Source: a candidate division WOR-3 bacterium
GTDB taxonomy: Bacteria > Hydrothermota > UBA3072
Length of the DNA: 64,000 nt
Assembly: GCA_039804165.1 (NCBI GenBank)
Contig: JBDRZZ010000001.1
Span: 92,962-156,961 of the forward strand
Reading direction: 5' to 3'
In this document: positions 1-8,330 of the stretch, piece after piece
Numbering within the stretch: the stretch's first letter is position 1
Layout: the number at the start of each line of letters is the position of its first letter
Notes under the pieces: model-generated
The model's input: the letters and a program-made list of their open reading frames with translations, nothing else
What the model was told of the DNA's origin: nothing
Database searches by the model: none
Program-made: the position numbers and the translations under genes

Positions 1-507
1 GATGCAAATAAAGGATGGATTGGAGCGAATGCACCAGGAAACCCAGGATGGAACGGGATTCTTTATACTTCAAATGGGGGGACAAGCTGGGAATTGCAGG
101 AAATACCTTTTCTTTCTGACACTAACCCAGTATTCAGCATCTTTTTCTTAGATGCTGAGACCGGTTGGTTTACAGCAGATCTTGGAATTATAGGATATAC
201 CACAACTGGTGGTTTAGGAGTTGGGGAGGTAACAAATAAAAAAGAAGGAATTCTTTCTTTAAAACAAGTACCTTTTGGTTTAAATGTAGAAATTTCTTTT
301 TGTATTCTGAAGAGGTCACAAGTGAATTTGAAGATTTATAATTTGATTGGGGAAGAAGTAGAGACAATTGTTAATGATGAAATACTGAAAGAAGGTGTTT
401 ATAATAAGTTATGGGATACTAAAAACTTATCAAGTGGTATATATTTTTGTAGATTGGAAGTGGGAGGTTTTTTGGCGGATATTAGGAAGATTGTTTTAGT
501 TAGATGA
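1..507 (+). CDS. Secreted beta-propeller protein with C-terminal sorting-type domain (5' partial)
   Basis: The reading frame is open from base 1, so the gene starts outside the window and about 168 C-terminal residues are visible. The first part has two BNR/Ycf48-like propeller signatures (ILYTSNGGTSWELQ, then DAETGWFTADLGIIGYTTTGG). The last 85 or so residues resemble the FlgD-like/type IX-type C-terminal domains of Bacteroidetes-related bacteria (LKIYNLIGEEVETIVN, then SSGIYFCRLEVGG and a final basic-hydrophobic strand KIVLVR). It is probably an exported or surface protein. Its substrate or role cannot be told. Which secretion route recognises the domain in this organism is inference. Confidence 0.75.
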   Translation, partial: DANKGWIGANAPGNPGWNGILYTSNGGTSWELQEIPFLSDTNPVFSIFFLDAETGWFTADLGIIGYTTTGGLGVGEVTNKKEGILSLKQVPFGLNVEISFCILKRSQVNLKIYNLIGEEVETIVNDEILKEGVYNKLWDTKNLSSGIYFCRLEVGGFLADIRKIVLVR

Positions 508-2501: not shown

Positions 2502-3728
2502 ATGAAAAACCTATTTAACCTTGTTTTTTTTCTTGCTCGGAGATATGTTCGGATTAAAAAGGGGGAGGGGTTCAGATCTTTAATAACACTTTTTGCAGGA
2601 GGAGGAATAGGTTTAGGTGTTGCAACGCTTTTGGTTGTTCTTTCTGTGATGAATGGGATGCAGAGTGATCTTAAGAATAAGGTTCTTGGAGGAAGTTCTC
2701 CATTAACTATTATGAGGATTGGAGAGGAACCCATTTCTGATTGGGAGGCGGTTGTTGAGAGTGTAAGAGGAAAAGTAAGAGGAGTTAAGGAAGCTTCTCC
2801 TTATATTTTAGAAAAAGCTCTTTTAAAGCATAATAAAAGAACAGATGGAGCTTTAGTAAGAGGCGTGGATCCTAATTCGTTTTCTCTTGTTTCAGATATT
2901 CCCAAAAATATTAAAATGGGGAATTTTGACCTTTCTGGGAAGAAAGTAATTCTTGGGAACTACTTGGCAGATCGTCTTTGGGCTCAAGTTGGAGACACAA
3001 TTACTATATCTTTTCCTTTTTCTTTTACTGCAACTCCTTTTGGTTTTATAGTTCCTTCTGGAGATTATGTGCTTGCAGGAGTTTTTGATATGGGTATGTA
3101 TGAATATAATGCAACTTTAGCCATAATTTCTCTTGAAGAGGCGAAAAAACTATTTGGAATTGATGGGGTTACAGGCGTAGATTTTACATTAGAGAACCCA
3201 TATAAAGCTCAAGAGATTTCAATTGATATTGTTGGGGAACTTGGTTTTCCTTATAGAGCTATTAGCTGGATGGATAGGAATAGAACTCTTTTAAGGGCTT
3301 TGGAAATAGAAAAGAAGGTGATGTTTATAATATTGATCTTAATAATAATAGTGGCTGCTTTTAATATTATTTCTTCTCTTGTTTTGATTGTTCTTGGGAA
3401 GATGAGGGAAATAGGAATTCTTAAGGCGTTGGGAGCTTCTGCTTCTTTAATTAGAAGGATTTTTTTGCTTGCTGGTCTTTTAGTTGGGGGAAGTGGAACA
3501 ATAGGCGGTATTATAATTGCCTGGATTTTATGCTTCCTTTTGGGAAAATACAAATTTATTGATTTACCTTCCGATGTTTATTTCCTTACTAAATTACCAG
3601 TGAAAATGCAAATCTTTGATTTTGTTTTGGTGGCTTTTTCTGCTATTATTCTTTCTTTGCTTGCAGCTTTGTATCCAGCTATAAAAGCTTCTAATCTTGA
3701 TCCTGTGGATGCGATTAGAAATGAGTGA
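2502..3728 (+). CDS. lolC: Lipoprotein-releasing ABC transporter permease (LolC/LolE family)
   Basis: 408 aa. The N-terminal signature LARRYVRIKKGEGFRSLITL leads into the first transmembrane segment (about 25-50), followed by a large periplasmic domain. Three further membrane segments near 275-300, 320-345 and 375-400 form the FtsX-like C-terminal half, including MREIGILKALGAS. In the Lol system such permeases extract lipoproteins from the inner membrane and pass them to LolA. Only one permease gene is present, as in bacteria with a single LolF-like homodimer, so the lolC symbol is approximate. It overlaps the ATPase gene by 8 nt. It heads a 12-gene operon. Confidence 0.88.
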   Translation: MKNLFNLVFFLARRYVRIKKGEGFRSLITLFAGGGIGLGVATLLVVLSVMNGMQSDLKNKVLGGSSPLTIMRIGEEPISDWEAVVESVRGKVRGVKEASPYILEKALLKHNKRTDGALVRGVDPNSFSLVSDIPKNIKMGNFDLSGKKVILGNYLADRLWAQVGDTITISFPFSFTATPFGFIVPSGDYVLAGVFDMGMYEYNATLAIISLEEAKKLFGIDGVTGVDFTLENPYKAQEISIDIVGELGFPYRAISWMDRNRTLLRALEIEKKVMFIILILIIIVAAFNIISSLVLIVLGKMREIGILKALGASASLIRRIFLLAGLLVGGSGTIGGIIIAWILCFLLGKYKFIDLPSDVYFLTKLPVKMQIFDFVLVAFSAIILSLLAALYPAIKASNLDPVDAIRNE

Positions 3729-4392
3729 GATAATAAAATTAAATAATGTTAAGAAGAAATTTGTTTCTGGAACTGAAGAAGTAAGAGTCCTGGAGGGAAT
3801 TAATTTAGAGGTAAGAAGAGGAGATTTTATAACCATAACAGGACCTTCAGGATCTGGGAAAAGCACCCTTCTTAATATAATGGGTGGACTTTTGCATCCT
3901 GATGAAGGAGAGGTTTTACTTGAGGGGAAGTCTCTTTATGAATACCAAGATAAAGAACTTGCAAGAATAAGGAATGAAAAAATAGGTTTTATATTTCAGT
4001 TTCATCATCTTCTTGTTGATTTTACGGTTTTAGAAAATTTGGCAATCCCTCTTTTGATGAAAGGCAGGGATCTTAAAGAGGCTTATAGAGAGGCAGAAAG
4101 ATTGCTTTCTATTGTGGATCTTAGGGAAAGGATTTATGCTAAGCCAAGAACTCTTTCAGGGGGGGAATGCCAGAGAGTGGCTATCCTTCGTGCTATTATA
4201 ACTCAACCCATATTGCTTCTTGCAGATGAGCCCACGGGAGATTTAGATGAAGCTCACGCAGAGGTTGTTTTGAAGATGATTAAAGAGATACATATAGAGA
4301 GGGGAATGACTGTTGTTCTTGTTAGCCATAACGAGAGGGTTGCACAAATGGGGAAAAAGATATATAATTTAAGTGGAGGAAGGTTAAGATGA
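3721..4392 (+). CDS. lolD: Lipoprotein-releasing ABC transporter ATPase
   Basis: 223 aa from ATG 3721 (MSEIIKLNNVKKKF), chosen over upstream codons because it makes the typical short overlap with the permease stop. Walker A GPSGSGKST, Q-loop FIFQFHHL, signature LSGGECQR, Walker B LLADEPTGDLD and the H-loop VSHN are all intact. It belongs to the LolD/MacB-type ATPases. It should pair with the adjacent permease to drive lipoprotein release from the inner membrane. Confidence 0.92.
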   Translation: MSEIIKLNNVKKKFVSGTEEVRVLEGINLEVRRGDFITITGPSGSGKSTLLNIMGGLLHPDEGEVLLEGKSLYEYQDKELARIRNEKIGFIFQFHHLLVDFTVLENLAIPLLMKGRDLKEAYREAERLLSIVDLRERIYAKPRTLSGGECQRVAILRAIITQPILLLADEPTGDLDEAHAEVVLKMIKEIHIERGMTVVLVSHNERVAQMGKKIYNLSGGRLR

Positions 4393-4856
4393 AGTGTGAT
4401 TTATGTGGTAATAATGAGGCAAAATTTAAGTATTATGAAGTAGATTCTGATAAGGTTCGGGAAATGAATATTTGTGAAGGATGTGCCAGAGAGAAAGGGA
4501 TTGAAAGTAAAATAGAGGAAGAACCAATAGGAGAGAAAAACAAAGTTTGTGGTAATTGTGGACTTAGCTTTGAGGAATATAATGAGACTAAAACACTGGG
4601 ATGTCCTGATTGCTATAAGACTTTTAATAAATGGATTAAGATTTCCTTAAAGAAGATTCAGAAGGATGTTGTTCATAGAGGAAAAGAAGCAATTAGAAAT
4701 TCAAGGATTATGGATGTTAAAAGGGAAATTCAGGAACTAAAGAGGAAACTTGAAAGTTTTGTAGAAAGCGAAAGATTTGAAGAAGCGCTTAAGTTGAGGG
4801 ATGAAATTGAAAAAAGAAAAAAGGAACTTAAAGCCATTAGGGGTAAAGGTGATTGA
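4389..4856 (+). CDS. mcsA: McsA-like zinc/UVR-motif protein
   Basis: 155 aa. Four CxxC pairs (CDLC 3-6, CEGC, CGNC, CPDC) form two zinc sites, and the segment GCPDCYKTF matches McsA of Firmicutes. The C-terminus is a UVR (UvrB/UvrC) coiled motif, ESERFEEALKLRDEI. In Bacillus, McsA activates the protein arginine kinase McsB and works with ClpC. ATGA overlap with lolD. No ctsR gene precedes it, unlike the classical ctsR-mcsA-mcsB-clpC operon. Confidence 0.9.
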   Translation: MKCDLCGNNEAKFKYYEVDSDKVREMNICEGCAREKGIESKIEEEPIGEKNKVCGNCGLSFEEYNETKTLGCPDCYKTFNKWIKISLKKIQKDVVHRGKEAIRNSRIMDVKREIQELKRKLESFVESERFEEALKLRDEIEKRKKELKAIRGKGD

Positions 4857-5901
4857 TTATCTTGTGGATAAATTTCCTTCCTGGATTGAAAAATTAGGCC
4901 CTTATTCAGATATGATTCTATTCTCTAAGGTTTCTTTATACCGTAACTTGGGGGGCTATAAATTTAATTTCAAAAATTCGGAGAAGGAAAAGGAGGAAAT
5001 TTTAGAGTTACTACGAGAAGGATTTTCTGCTCTTCCTTTATTTGAAAATATTATTTTTTTAAGAGAGCTTAATAATAACGAGAGGCAATTTTTGATGGAA
5101 AGAGAATTTATTTCAAAAGATTGTTTGAAGAACTTTCATTTTGTTGGGTTGGGTTTAGATGCCTCCCAAGAGAAGATATGTGTTTTAAATGGAAAAGAGC
5201 ATGTTGAGATTTCTTGTTTTTGCCCTGAATTATTGGTTAGGGATGCTTATACAGAATGTGATAGGTTAGATGATGAATTGAATGAGGAGTTTGGTTTTGC
5301 TTATGATGAGGAATTGGGTTTTCTTACTTCTTCAATTGAGAAGCTTGGAACCGGAATGATTGTCTCTTCGGTAGTTCATCTACCTGCCCTTGTTATTACA
5401 GGAGAGATTGTAGAGGTTATTGAGGATATTGAGGATTCCCTTTTTCATATTGAGGGAATTTTTAATATTGAAGAAAATGTTGCGGGAAGCTATTTTAGGA
5501 TTAGTAACAGATTTACTCTTGGGATATCTGAGGAGGAAATATTAGACTTGTTTGAAGGAAAAATAAAGGATGTTATTAAAGAAGAAGTCGCAAGTAGAGA
5601 GTATTTAACCCAAAAAGCGGGATATGAAACTGAAGATAAAATTTGTAGGTCTTATGGTATATTGGAGAATGCAAGAATGCTATCTATAAATGAGTTTTTG
5701 AATTTATCTTCAGCTGTTAGGCTTGGTTTGAGTTTGGGGATTATAAAAGATATAAATATAAAAGAGTTAAATAAATGGATTTTGCAAGCTTTACCAGGAT
5801 ATATAAGGGTTTTAAATCCAGAAATTAATGACATTAAAGAAGAAAATATTGTTAGGGCAAAATTAATAAGAAGTAATTTAGGAGGAGAAAAATGTTCATA
5901 G
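4849..5901 (+). CDS. mcsB: McsB-like protein arginine kinase homologue, probable pseudokinase
   Basis: 350 aa from GTG 4849. This start was chosen for the AGGGG at 4839-4843 and the 8-nt overlap with mcsA; an ATG at 4801 is less likely. The whole length aligns with Bacillus McsB (shared GPxSD, GTG, HLPALV, RSYGIL, VRLGLSLGIIK). Many catalytic residues differ. By my recalled alignment, R29 becomes K27, R31 becomes S29, NEEDH becomes NGKEH (114-118), C167 becomes S162, R176 becomes I171, R207 becomes E202 and E212 becomes I207. In the C-terminal phosphoarginine pocket the RDxxRA motif reads ENIVRA. The fold seems kept and kinase activity is doubtful. It lies between mcsA and clpC, so a scaffold or adaptor role for ClpC is plausible. 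Confidence 0.85.
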   Translation: MIDYLVDKFPSWIEKLGPYSDMILFSKVSLYRNLGGYKFNFKNSEKEKEEILELLREGFSALPLFENIIFLRELNNNERQFLMEREFISKDCLKNFHFVGLGLDASQEKICVLNGKEHVEISCFCPELLVRDAYTECDRLDDELNEEFGFAYDEELGFLTSSIEKLGTGMIVSSVVHLPALVITGEIVEVIEDIEDSLFHIEGIFNIEENVAGSYFRISNRFTLGISEEEILDLFEGKIKDVIKEEVASREYLTQKAGYETEDKICRSYGILENARMLSINEFLNLSSAVRLGLSLGIIKDINIKELNKWILQALPGYIRVLNPEINDIKEENIVRAKLIRSNLGGEKCS

Positions 5902-8330
5902 ATGAAGGTTTTACGAAAAAACTTATAGATGTTATAAAGATAGCAAAGGATATAGCTAAAGGAGCAGATTTAGAAGAAGTAACTCCTTTAATTCTTTTTC
6001 TTGCTTTGCTAAAACATCGTAACAATACAGCTGTTACAATAATGGATGAGTTGGGGATAGATATTGATATGGCCGAGAGCAGGATTATGAAGTTCCTTAG
6101 TATTAATGAGGAAAGAATGAAATCAGATGAACCTATTGGGTTGTCTGAAAGCTGTATCAGCATTATGGAGCAGGCAAAAGAGGAAGCTTTGATGCTTGGT
6201 AAACAGGTAATAGGAACCGAACATCTACTTTTGGCATTGCTTAAGTCAAAAGAAAGTAGTTTTGTTAAAATCTTACGGTTAGAACCTCTTGAATATTATT
6301 CTGCAAAGAGAATTCTTCTTGACCTTTTTGAGAGAGAAATACCTCAGGATAAAGAAAAGACTAAGTCTTCTGATAGAACTTTAGAGTTTTATACCAGGGA
6401 TCTTACAGAACTTGCAAGAGAGGGGAAAATTGATCCTGTTATTGGAAGAGAGGGAGAGATTGAAAGAGTTATTCAGACTTTGTGTAGGAGAAAGAAAAAT
6501 AATCCTGTTCTTGTTGGAGAACCTGGGGTTGGTAAAACTGCAATAGTTGAAGGTCTTGCCCAAAGAATTGTTTCTGGTAGAGTTCCTAAGGTTTTGCAGA
6601 ATAAAAGAATTCTTTCTTTAGATCTTGCTTCTGTTATTGCAGGAACGAAATATCGTGGGCAATTTGAAAAAAGATTAAAACAGATTTTAGATTCATTAAG
6701 AGAATCTAACTATATTCTTTTCATTGATGAGATTCACACTATTGTAGGTGCTGGAGCTGCTGAGGGAGCCATAGATGCTTCTAATATGTTAAAACCTGTT
6801 CTTGCAAGTGGAGAGATTCAAACGATTGGTGCAACAACCCATGAAGAGTATAGGAAATATATTGAAAAAGACGGAGCTCTTGAAAGAAGGCTCCAGATGA
6901 TTATTGTAGAGCCTCCTACGATAGAAGAGACAATAGAGATTTTAAAAGGAATTAAACGTAAATATGAGGATTTTCATAAGGTTATTTATCCTGATGATGT
7001 GATTGCTGTGGCGGTTAAACTTTCTGCTCAATACATTCAGGGTAGAAATCTTCCAGATAAAGCTATTGATGTTCTGGATGAGACAGGAGCAAGGGTAAGA
7101 TTGAGAGAGACAAAGGTTCCTGATGAGATTGTAAAATTAGAAGAGGAGCTAAGAGAAGTTAAGGAGAAATTGGTTAAAGCAAGAGAAGAAGGCAGATATG
7201 AGGTTGCGATTGAACTTAGGGATAAGAGGGATGAACTTGAGGAGAAGTTAGAGAGAAGTCTACAAGAATGGGGTAAGTATGGAAGTTTTAAAAGCGTTGA
7301 AGTGACAGAAGATGATATTAGAGAGGTTGTTTCCCTCTGGACAGGGATTCCTCTTAAGAGACTGAAAGAGGAAGAAACAGAGCGTCTTCTCTCTATGGAG
7401 AAAGAGATCAAAAAGAGAGTTGTTGGACAAGATGAAGCTGTTAAGGTTGTTTCCCAGGCGATAAGAAGAAGTAGGGCTGGTTTGCGTGATATGAGAAGAC
7501 CTTTGGGTGCTTTTCTTTTCCTTGGACCGACTGGAGTAGGGAAAACTGAGCTTGCTAAGCAACTTGCAAGATTTCTCTTTAATACCGAAGATGCTTTAAT
7601 TAGAATAGATATGAGTGAATTTATGGAAAGATTCAATGTTTCAAAGTTGATTGGAGCTCCTCCTGGATATGTTGGGTATGAAGAAGGGGGGACTCTTACA
7701 GAGGCTGTTAGAAGAAGACCTTATGCTGTCGTTCTTTTGGATGAGATAGAAAAGGCACATCCGGAAGTTTACAATATCCTTCTTCAGGTTTTTGATGAAG
7801 GGATTTTAACTGATGCCTGTGGTAGGAAGATTTCTTTTAGAAACACAGTTATAATTATGACTTCAAATATAGGAACAAAGGAAATAATGCAGGGGACTCA
7901 TTTAGGCTTTAAGAAGAGCGGTAAAATTGAATATGAGGAAATGAAGGAATATCTTCTTGAAGAGATTAAGAACAGATTTAACCCTGAGTTCTTAAATAGA
8001 ATTGATGAATGCGTTGTTTTTAGGCCTCTTGATAGAAAAATGATGTCTTCAATTGTGGATATATTCTTTGATGAGGTAAAGAAGAGAGTGGAGGAGAAAG
8101 GTTTTGAGATCTCTCTTACTGAGGAAGCAAAAGAGTTTCTTATTGAGAAAGGGTTTGATCCAGAGTTTGGAGCAAGACCTTTAAAGAGAATTATTCAGAG
8201 GGAATTAGAGGATAAATTGGCGGAGGCTTTCTTAAAGGGAGAATGGAAGGAAGGCAGTAAAATCGTGGTTGCCAGAGAGGGTAATGACTTGATATTCTTT
8301 ACCTCTCATTCTGTGGCTGAAGTTATCTAA
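5892..8330 (+). CDS. clpC: ATP-dependent Clp protease ATPase subunit ClpC
   Basis: 812 aa, the usual ClpC length. Order: Clp N-domain repeats (1-145), first AAA+ domain with Walker A GEPGVGKTA and Walker B FIDEIHTI, a middle domain with a UVR-type motif (AREEGRYEVAIELRDKRDEL) typical of ClpC, then the second AAA+ with GPTGVGKTE, the GYVGYE pore loop and a C-terminal D2-small domain. It unfolds substrates for ClpP, with McsA/McsB as adaptors in Firmicutes. The strong RBS TTAGGAGGAGAAAA lies at the end of mcsB, overlapping it by 10 nt. Confidence 0.95.
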   Translation: MFIDEGFTKKLIDVIKIAKDIAKGADLEEVTPLILFLALLKHRNNTAVTIMDELGIDIDMAESRIMKFLSINEERMKSDEPIGLSESCISIMEQAKEEALMLGKQVIGTEHLLLALLKSKESSFVKILRLEPLEYYSAKRILLDLFEREIPQDKEKTKSSDRTLEFYTRDLTELAREGKIDPVIGREGEIERVIQTLCRRKKNNPVLVGEPGVGKTAIVEGLAQRIVSGRVPKVLQNKRILSLDLASVIAGTKYRGQFEKRLKQILDSLRESNYILFIDEIHTIVGAGAAEGAIDASNMLKPVLASGEIQTIGATTHEEYRKYIEKDGALERRLQMIIVEPPTIEETIEILKGIKRKYEDFHKVIYPDDVIAVAVKLSAQYIQGRNLPDKAIDVLDETGARVRLRETKVPDEIVKLEEELREVKEKLVKAREEGRYEVAIELRDKRDELEEKLERSLQEWGKYGSFKSVEVTEDDIREVVSLWTGIPLKRLKEEETERLLSMEKEIKKRVVGQDEAVKVVSQAIRRSRAGLRDMRRPLGAFLFLGPTGVGKTELAKQLARFLFNTEDALIRIDMSEFMERFNVSKLIGAPPGYVGYEEGGTLTEAVRRRPYAVVLLDEIEKAHPEVYNILLQVFDEGILTDACGRKISFRNTVIIMTSNIGTKEIMQGTHLGFKKSGKIEYEEMKEYLLEEIKNRFNPEFLNRIDECVVFRPLDRKMMSSIVDIFFDEVKKRVEEKGFEISLTEEAKEFLIEKGFDPEFGARPLKRIIQRELEDKLAEAFLKGEWKEGSKIVVAREGNDLIFFTSHSVAEVI

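Follow-up and report, generated by a model that had tools for sequence, protein, structure and literature searches.

The window, that is, the whole 64,000-nucleotide stretch of candidate division WOR-3 DNA analysed here, contains a tight operon with the gene order lolC-lolD-mcsA-mcsB-clpC. Successive genes overlap, lolD with the start of mcsA by 4 bp, the mcsA stop with the GTG start of mcsB by 8 bp, and the mcsB stop with the start of clpC by 10 bp. The boundaries that a sequence-only reading had assigned to mcsB are right, as are its mcsA and clpC flanks, and the locus has the mcsA-mcsB-clpC order by which homology to McsB is judged. The product of mcsA scores 93.8 bits against NF053706, below the cut-off of 210. 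The genes after clpC are presumably parA, parB, an M23-like and a bactofilin-like gene. At window positions 94-507 lies the C-terminal end of an ORF, which may resemble a type IX secretion sorting tail.

Table. Genes and diagnostic codons of the operon, in window positions; residue changes are numbered as in B. subtilis McsB
Feature	Position	Strand	Remarks
lolC/E-type permease	2502..3728	+	FtsX and MacB_PCD domains; conserved upstream neighbour (synteny)
lolD-type ABC ATPase	3697..4392	+	ABC_tran domain; synteny
mcsA	4389..4856	+	155 aa; complete UVR motif and two complete zinc fingers (8 Cys)
mcsB homologue (pseudo-McsB)	4849..5901	+	350 aa; GTG start
K27 and S29 codons	4927..4935	+	R29K, R31S; SSRxRxxRN nucleotide-binding motif
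NGKEHVE replacing NEEDHxR	5188..5208	+	E120G, E121K, R125E; H123 kept
S162	5332..5334	+	C167S
I171	5359..5361	+	R176I
E202 and I207	5452..5469	+	R207E, E212I; lid region
ENIVR replacing RDxxR	5842..5856	+	phosphoarginine pocket; R337E, D338N; R341 kept
clpC	5892..8330	+	812 aa; two AAA domains; LGF ClpP-binding loop
ClpC residue aligned to E32 of phosphoarginine pocket 1	5988..5990	+	Leu; E106 of pocket 2 kept

The product of the mcsB gene is certainly homologous to McsB. Its sole Pfam domain is PF00217 (ATP-gua_Ptrans, 121 bits), its closest matches among solved structures are the McsBs 8wtb, 6tv6, 6fh1 and 8gqd, and the alignment to 6tv6 and 6fh1 extends from residue 4 or 10, respectively, to residue 344. 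An AlphaFold2 model built on a 17-sequence alignment has a mean pLDDT of 91.7, and Foldseek superposes it on 6fh1 with a TM score of 0.91 and an rmsd of 2.0 A. It was concluded from these values that the fold is intact, as the sequence-only reading had claimed; both the phosphotransferase and the C-terminal dimerization domains are kept, and the protein is McsB-like across its full length. The NCBIfam equivalogs for arginine kinases all match it as well, all far under their cut-offs (best 271 bits versus 385), and on its defining residues the protein appears to fall outside the protein-arginine kinase enzyme family.

Alignment to the solved structures defines what has changed. The nucleotide-binding arginines have all been exchanged (R29K, R31S, R125E, R176I, R207E), as have the catalytic acids of the NEEDH motif and E212 (E120G, E121K, E212I) and the reactive cysteine (C167S), so that none of the nine active-site residues is left. 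In the allosteric phosphoarginine pocket two of three residues are gone (R337E, D338N). R34, H123 and R341 are kept, and wherever these positions were readable in other WOR-3 McsBs they are unchanged too. Each substitution listed in the sequence-only reading proved correct in this alignment, with all the active-site positions that it named substituted; R125E was absent from its list.

The consequences of such changes are known from B. subtilis, in whose McsB R29K, R31K, R34K, R125K, R176K, R207K and R337K each abolish phosphorylation in vitro, whereas R86K, R255K, R272K, R281K and R341K remove the part of the activity that McsA stimulates (PMC7235348). The window protein has changed six of the seven kinase-essential arginines (R34 stays), R29K being identical to the tested allele. 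It retains four of the five McsA-stimulation arginines, R255, R272, R281 and R341, all invariant in its family; the fifth, R86, is not conserved across WOR-3 anyway. C167S, a known kinase-dead form of the B. subtilis enzyme (PMC7235348), is the native state here, and R337A/D338A disrupts phosphoarginine-dependent oligomers of B. subtilis McsB (PMC8370763). Unlike the laboratory C167S allele, the window protein is natural, carries at least nine further active-site or pocket changes and has them fixed in its clade.

PF00217 matches occur in 122 of 147 WOR-3 genomes, in most of them as one copy. The genome of the window likewise has a single such gene, and a PF00217 profile search of that genome for a second, canonical McsB found none. 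Scoring of 115 WOR-3 McsB loci on eight catalytic residues gave 80 loci with all eight, nine with five to seven, and 26 with three or fewer, the last group being termed degenerate; 23 of these are full length, and the other three (G041, G043, G044), truncated where their contigs end, are less certain. Degenerate McsBs occur in eight families: that of the window (f1), f2 of the same order, f8, f14, f19, f21, f31 and f37. The nearest outgroups, f3 and f4, belong to the same class, have the same gene order and are fully canonical, and the order lolC-lolD-mcsA-mcsB-clpC is common to canonical and degenerate relatives. Horizontal replacement of mcsB is not supported, as the gene order matches that of the canonical outgroups.

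Most of the active-site loss is common to the whole order-level clade, f1 and its sister family f2, and degeneration recurs elsewhere in WOR-3. In a tree of RpoB and RpoC, f1 groups with f2, and canonical f3 and f4 together are the sister of that clade. Over its 40 representatives the degenerate state needs eight changes, at least seven of them forced by well-supported branches, in a count where losses and gains may be mixed. The catalytic residues were lost several times independently within WOR-3, with about seven changes on the tree. The McsBs of f8, f14, f19, f21, f31 and f37 (e.g. L041, L102, L040, L086, L096 and L093) have differing substitutions and the same kept R34, H123 and R341. Intermediate McsBs, with five to seven of the eight catalytic residues, are seen in f10 (G143, G144), f5 (G010), f28 and f27. 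Those of f10 and f5 coexist with fully canonical members of their own families and possibly represent recent or ongoing loss. The genomes of f13, f25 and f26 that were searched had no PF00217 match, and mcsB has apparently been lost from them altogether.

The distribution of changes within the protein distinguishes loss of the active site from general divergence. In the window's family none of the nine active-site residues is retained, versus 31 of 43 comparison positions, chosen for an invariance of 95% or more among canonical WOR-3 McsBs (Fisher p = 8e-5), so the loss of the active site is not due to chance. The bias is significant singly in f1, f2, f8, f14, f21, f31 and f37, and not in f19. 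Degenerate mcsB pairs with measurable dS give omega values of 0.06-0.13, within the range of canonical pairs, and the degenerate copies are under continuing purifying selection. The closest pair within the window's genus is saturated at synonymous sites, with closer pairs drawn from other degenerate families, and selection in f1 therefore rests on one pair (dS 1.7, omega 0.13) together with many invariant residues. The gene is full length and without stops in six f1 genomes of five genera.

In light of the kept fold, the clade-wide loss of every class of catalytic residue, the single copy and the purifying selection, the proposal of the sequence-only reading that the window gene encodes a McsB pseudokinase, with catalysis lost, is well supported. 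The protein would be unable to phosphorylate arginine. Since the genome has no other PF00217 gene, the cell would be without a protein-arginine kinase of the McsB type, and the suggested loss of arginine phosphorylation follows.

The partners of McsB are largely preserved. All eight zinc cysteines are present in the McsA of the window, as they are in that of most degenerate lineages; the McsA of f19 (L040, L099, L100, L103) is about 107 aa long and has no N-terminal zinc finger. The phosphoarginine pockets of ClpC include E32 and E106 (PMC12583610), and alignment to a provisional B. subtilis ClpC N-domain sequence, used as a ruler for the pocket residues, places both glutamates in most WOR-3 lineages, including most degenerate ones. 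Loss of E32 is confined to the window's genus, which has Leu or Val there, and to f19, where both glutamates are replaced in the readable ClpCs (G035, G042); the neighbouring histidine is gone in all of f1 and f2. The view that McsA and ClpC are intact thus holds for the McsA cysteines and for the AAA domains and LGF loop of ClpC, but not for phosphoarginine pocket 1. Loss of the ClpC pocket was rejected as a general correlate of McsB degeneration, the pockets being intact in most degenerate lineages.

The window's genome also has two ClpP genes and two further Hsp100 genes besides the operon ClpC; MecA was sought there and is absent. CtsR, reported missing by the sequence-only reading, is indeed absent from that genome, and it is equally absent from all 147 WOR-3 genomes searched. 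Its absence is thus uninformative about the window mcsB, and CtsR loss was rejected as a correlate of degeneration. Of the controls for these searches, L. lactis matched CtsR and a genome labelled B. subtilis matched neither CtsR nor PF00217. B. subtilis as a species has both; in the labelled control that operon is apparently missing or masked.

A low-molecular-weight phosphatase of the YwlE type is present in the window's genome (G000:C3:122506-122925, L045). It occupies the C-terminal half of a longer protein whose N-terminal half is Sua5/YrdC-like. The length of the open frames elsewhere (about 350-370 aa; L185-L254) suggests that this fusion occurs in much of WOR-3. In YwlE, position 5 of the CX5R P-loop sets specificity, Thr for phosphoarginine and Ile for phosphotyrosine (PMC8001253). 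The P-loop in the window's genome reads CSANKCRS, so that the enzyme is there and the phosphoarginine-specifying Thr is gone. This position (residue 11) is K, L, I or M in all six f1 genomes and T in the class outgroups, and is mostly Thr or Ser in genomes with canonical McsB. It is changed in f19, f21 and f37 too, but f2 and f8, with degenerate McsBs, keep the phosphoarginine-type P-loop with Thr (CSGNTCRS, CTGNTCRS). The change occurs in 5 of 8 rows with degenerate McsB and in 4 of 20 with canonical McsB (p = 0.044, uncorrected for phylogeny). Since a test on independent pairs gives no significance, its association with McsB degeneration is only suggestive as a general correlate.

The most economical reading of the operon linkage and the kept McsA-coupling arginines is that the pseudokinase probably serves as an McsA-bound adaptor or scaffold for ClpC. 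In B. subtilis the McsB C167S form has a partial effect, the half-life of MgsR still being shorter than in the deletion, which the authors interpreted as an adaptor function independent of kinase activity (PMC7235348). Stimulation of ClpC by B. subtilis McsB, however, reportedly depends on its kinase activity (PMC5506225), and a kinase-free adaptor must therefore work differently. Pseudo-McsB might act as an McsA-bound dimer that aids the loading of substrates onto ClpC by protein contact alone; alternatively, it might relieve the resting state of ClpC by contact, in the fashion of MecA, a kinase-free activator that binds the same N-domain pockets (PMC12583610). The proposed action, ClpC activation and substrate delivery by contact, would be that of MecA, although MecA is unrelated to it in sequence.

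Three changes can be placed in a plausible order from their distribution. Catalysis by McsB would have been lost in the ancestor of f1 and f2, YwlE would then have changed in f1, and pocket 1 of ClpC would have changed last, in the window's genus. The YwlE and ClpC changes would fit a stepwise disuse of the phosphoarginine signal.

A function confined to McsA is a rival to delivery of substrates to ClpC: the pseudokinase might control McsA, for example by holding this redox-sensitive zinc-finger protein, or might do some other McsA-dependent job. The gene mcsA adjoins mcsB in all loci read but one, whereas clpC is non-adjacent in most and was not found beside mcsB in five degenerate families, and the retention of both the McsA-coupling arginines and the McsA cysteines is as this rival would have it. 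It is nonetheless unlikely, as clpC overlaps or abuts mcsB in the window's order, ClpC-type genes are present elsewhere in most of the unlinked degenerate genomes tested, and an adaptor role of McsA/McsB for ClpC is known (PMC13125188).

Less probable still is a divergent yet active kinase, with a remodelled site that uses another nucleotide or another acceptor. Some pseudokinase folds elsewhere have proved to have other chemistry, and in f1 part of the active site has been re-fixed (K29, S31, E122, S167) rather than left to drift, while R34 and H123 persist. The other pocket positions, however, differ from species to species (E120 S/A/G, E121 D/E/K, R125 R/K/Q/E, R176 E/V/I, R207 E/D/Q/G); the nucleotide-phosphate cage has been lost together with the catalytic acids, and single changes of such kind kill the B. 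subtilis enzyme (PMC7235348). That mcsB is a decaying relic held only by its operon position is very improbable. Within the window's family it does diverge faster than its neighbours (identity 44-64% versus 69-78% for clpC), and several WOR-3 families, such as f13, f25 and f26, do without any PF00217 match, but the uninterrupted frames, the omega of about 0.1, the many family-invariant residues and the confident fold largely refute this explanation. An assembly or annotation artefact, conceivable as the genomes are metagenome-assembled, is refuted, since the state recurs in six genomes that were assembled separately, and may be dismissed.

The pseudokinase adaptor can be set against known systems. 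The canonical McsBs of B. subtilis, G. stearothermophilus and S. aureus share with the window protein the full-length fold, the dimerization domain, the mcsA-mcsB-clpC operon and residues R34, H123, R255, R272 and R341, and differ in the active-site arginines, catalytic acids, C167 and phosphoarginine pocket, and in that WOR-3 has no CtsR. Bacterial Ser/Thr pseudokinases, the subject of a review (PMC12599244), likewise retain a kinase fold in general after catalysis is gone; theirs is the protein-kinase-like fold, whereas that of McsB is the phosphagen-kinase fold. No description of a pseudokinase McsB was found in the open-licence papers searched.

A 2017 review noted that in McsB the kinase role is hard to separate from the adaptor role, since stimulation of ClpC in B. 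subtilis depends on catalysis (PMC5506225). A lineage without catalysis that keeps McsA, McsB and ClpC together would separate the two roles in nature. More tentatively, with the balance leaning slightly against it, the proposal may be extended to WOR-3 at large: McsA-McsB-ClpC would there be a phosphoarginine-independent adaptor-unfoldase, reached at least several times by kinase loss, with a scaffold function separable from, and outliving, arginine phosphorylation. The presence of mcsB in a genome does not amount to arginine phosphorylation, about one-fifth of the McsB loci read in WOR-3 appearing catalytically dead. Outside WOR-3, McsBs with several active-site changes (R29K, R31A, R125K and R207T; or C167S, R176C and E212K) were also observed in Clostridia (L075, L076) and Lentisphaeria (L073).
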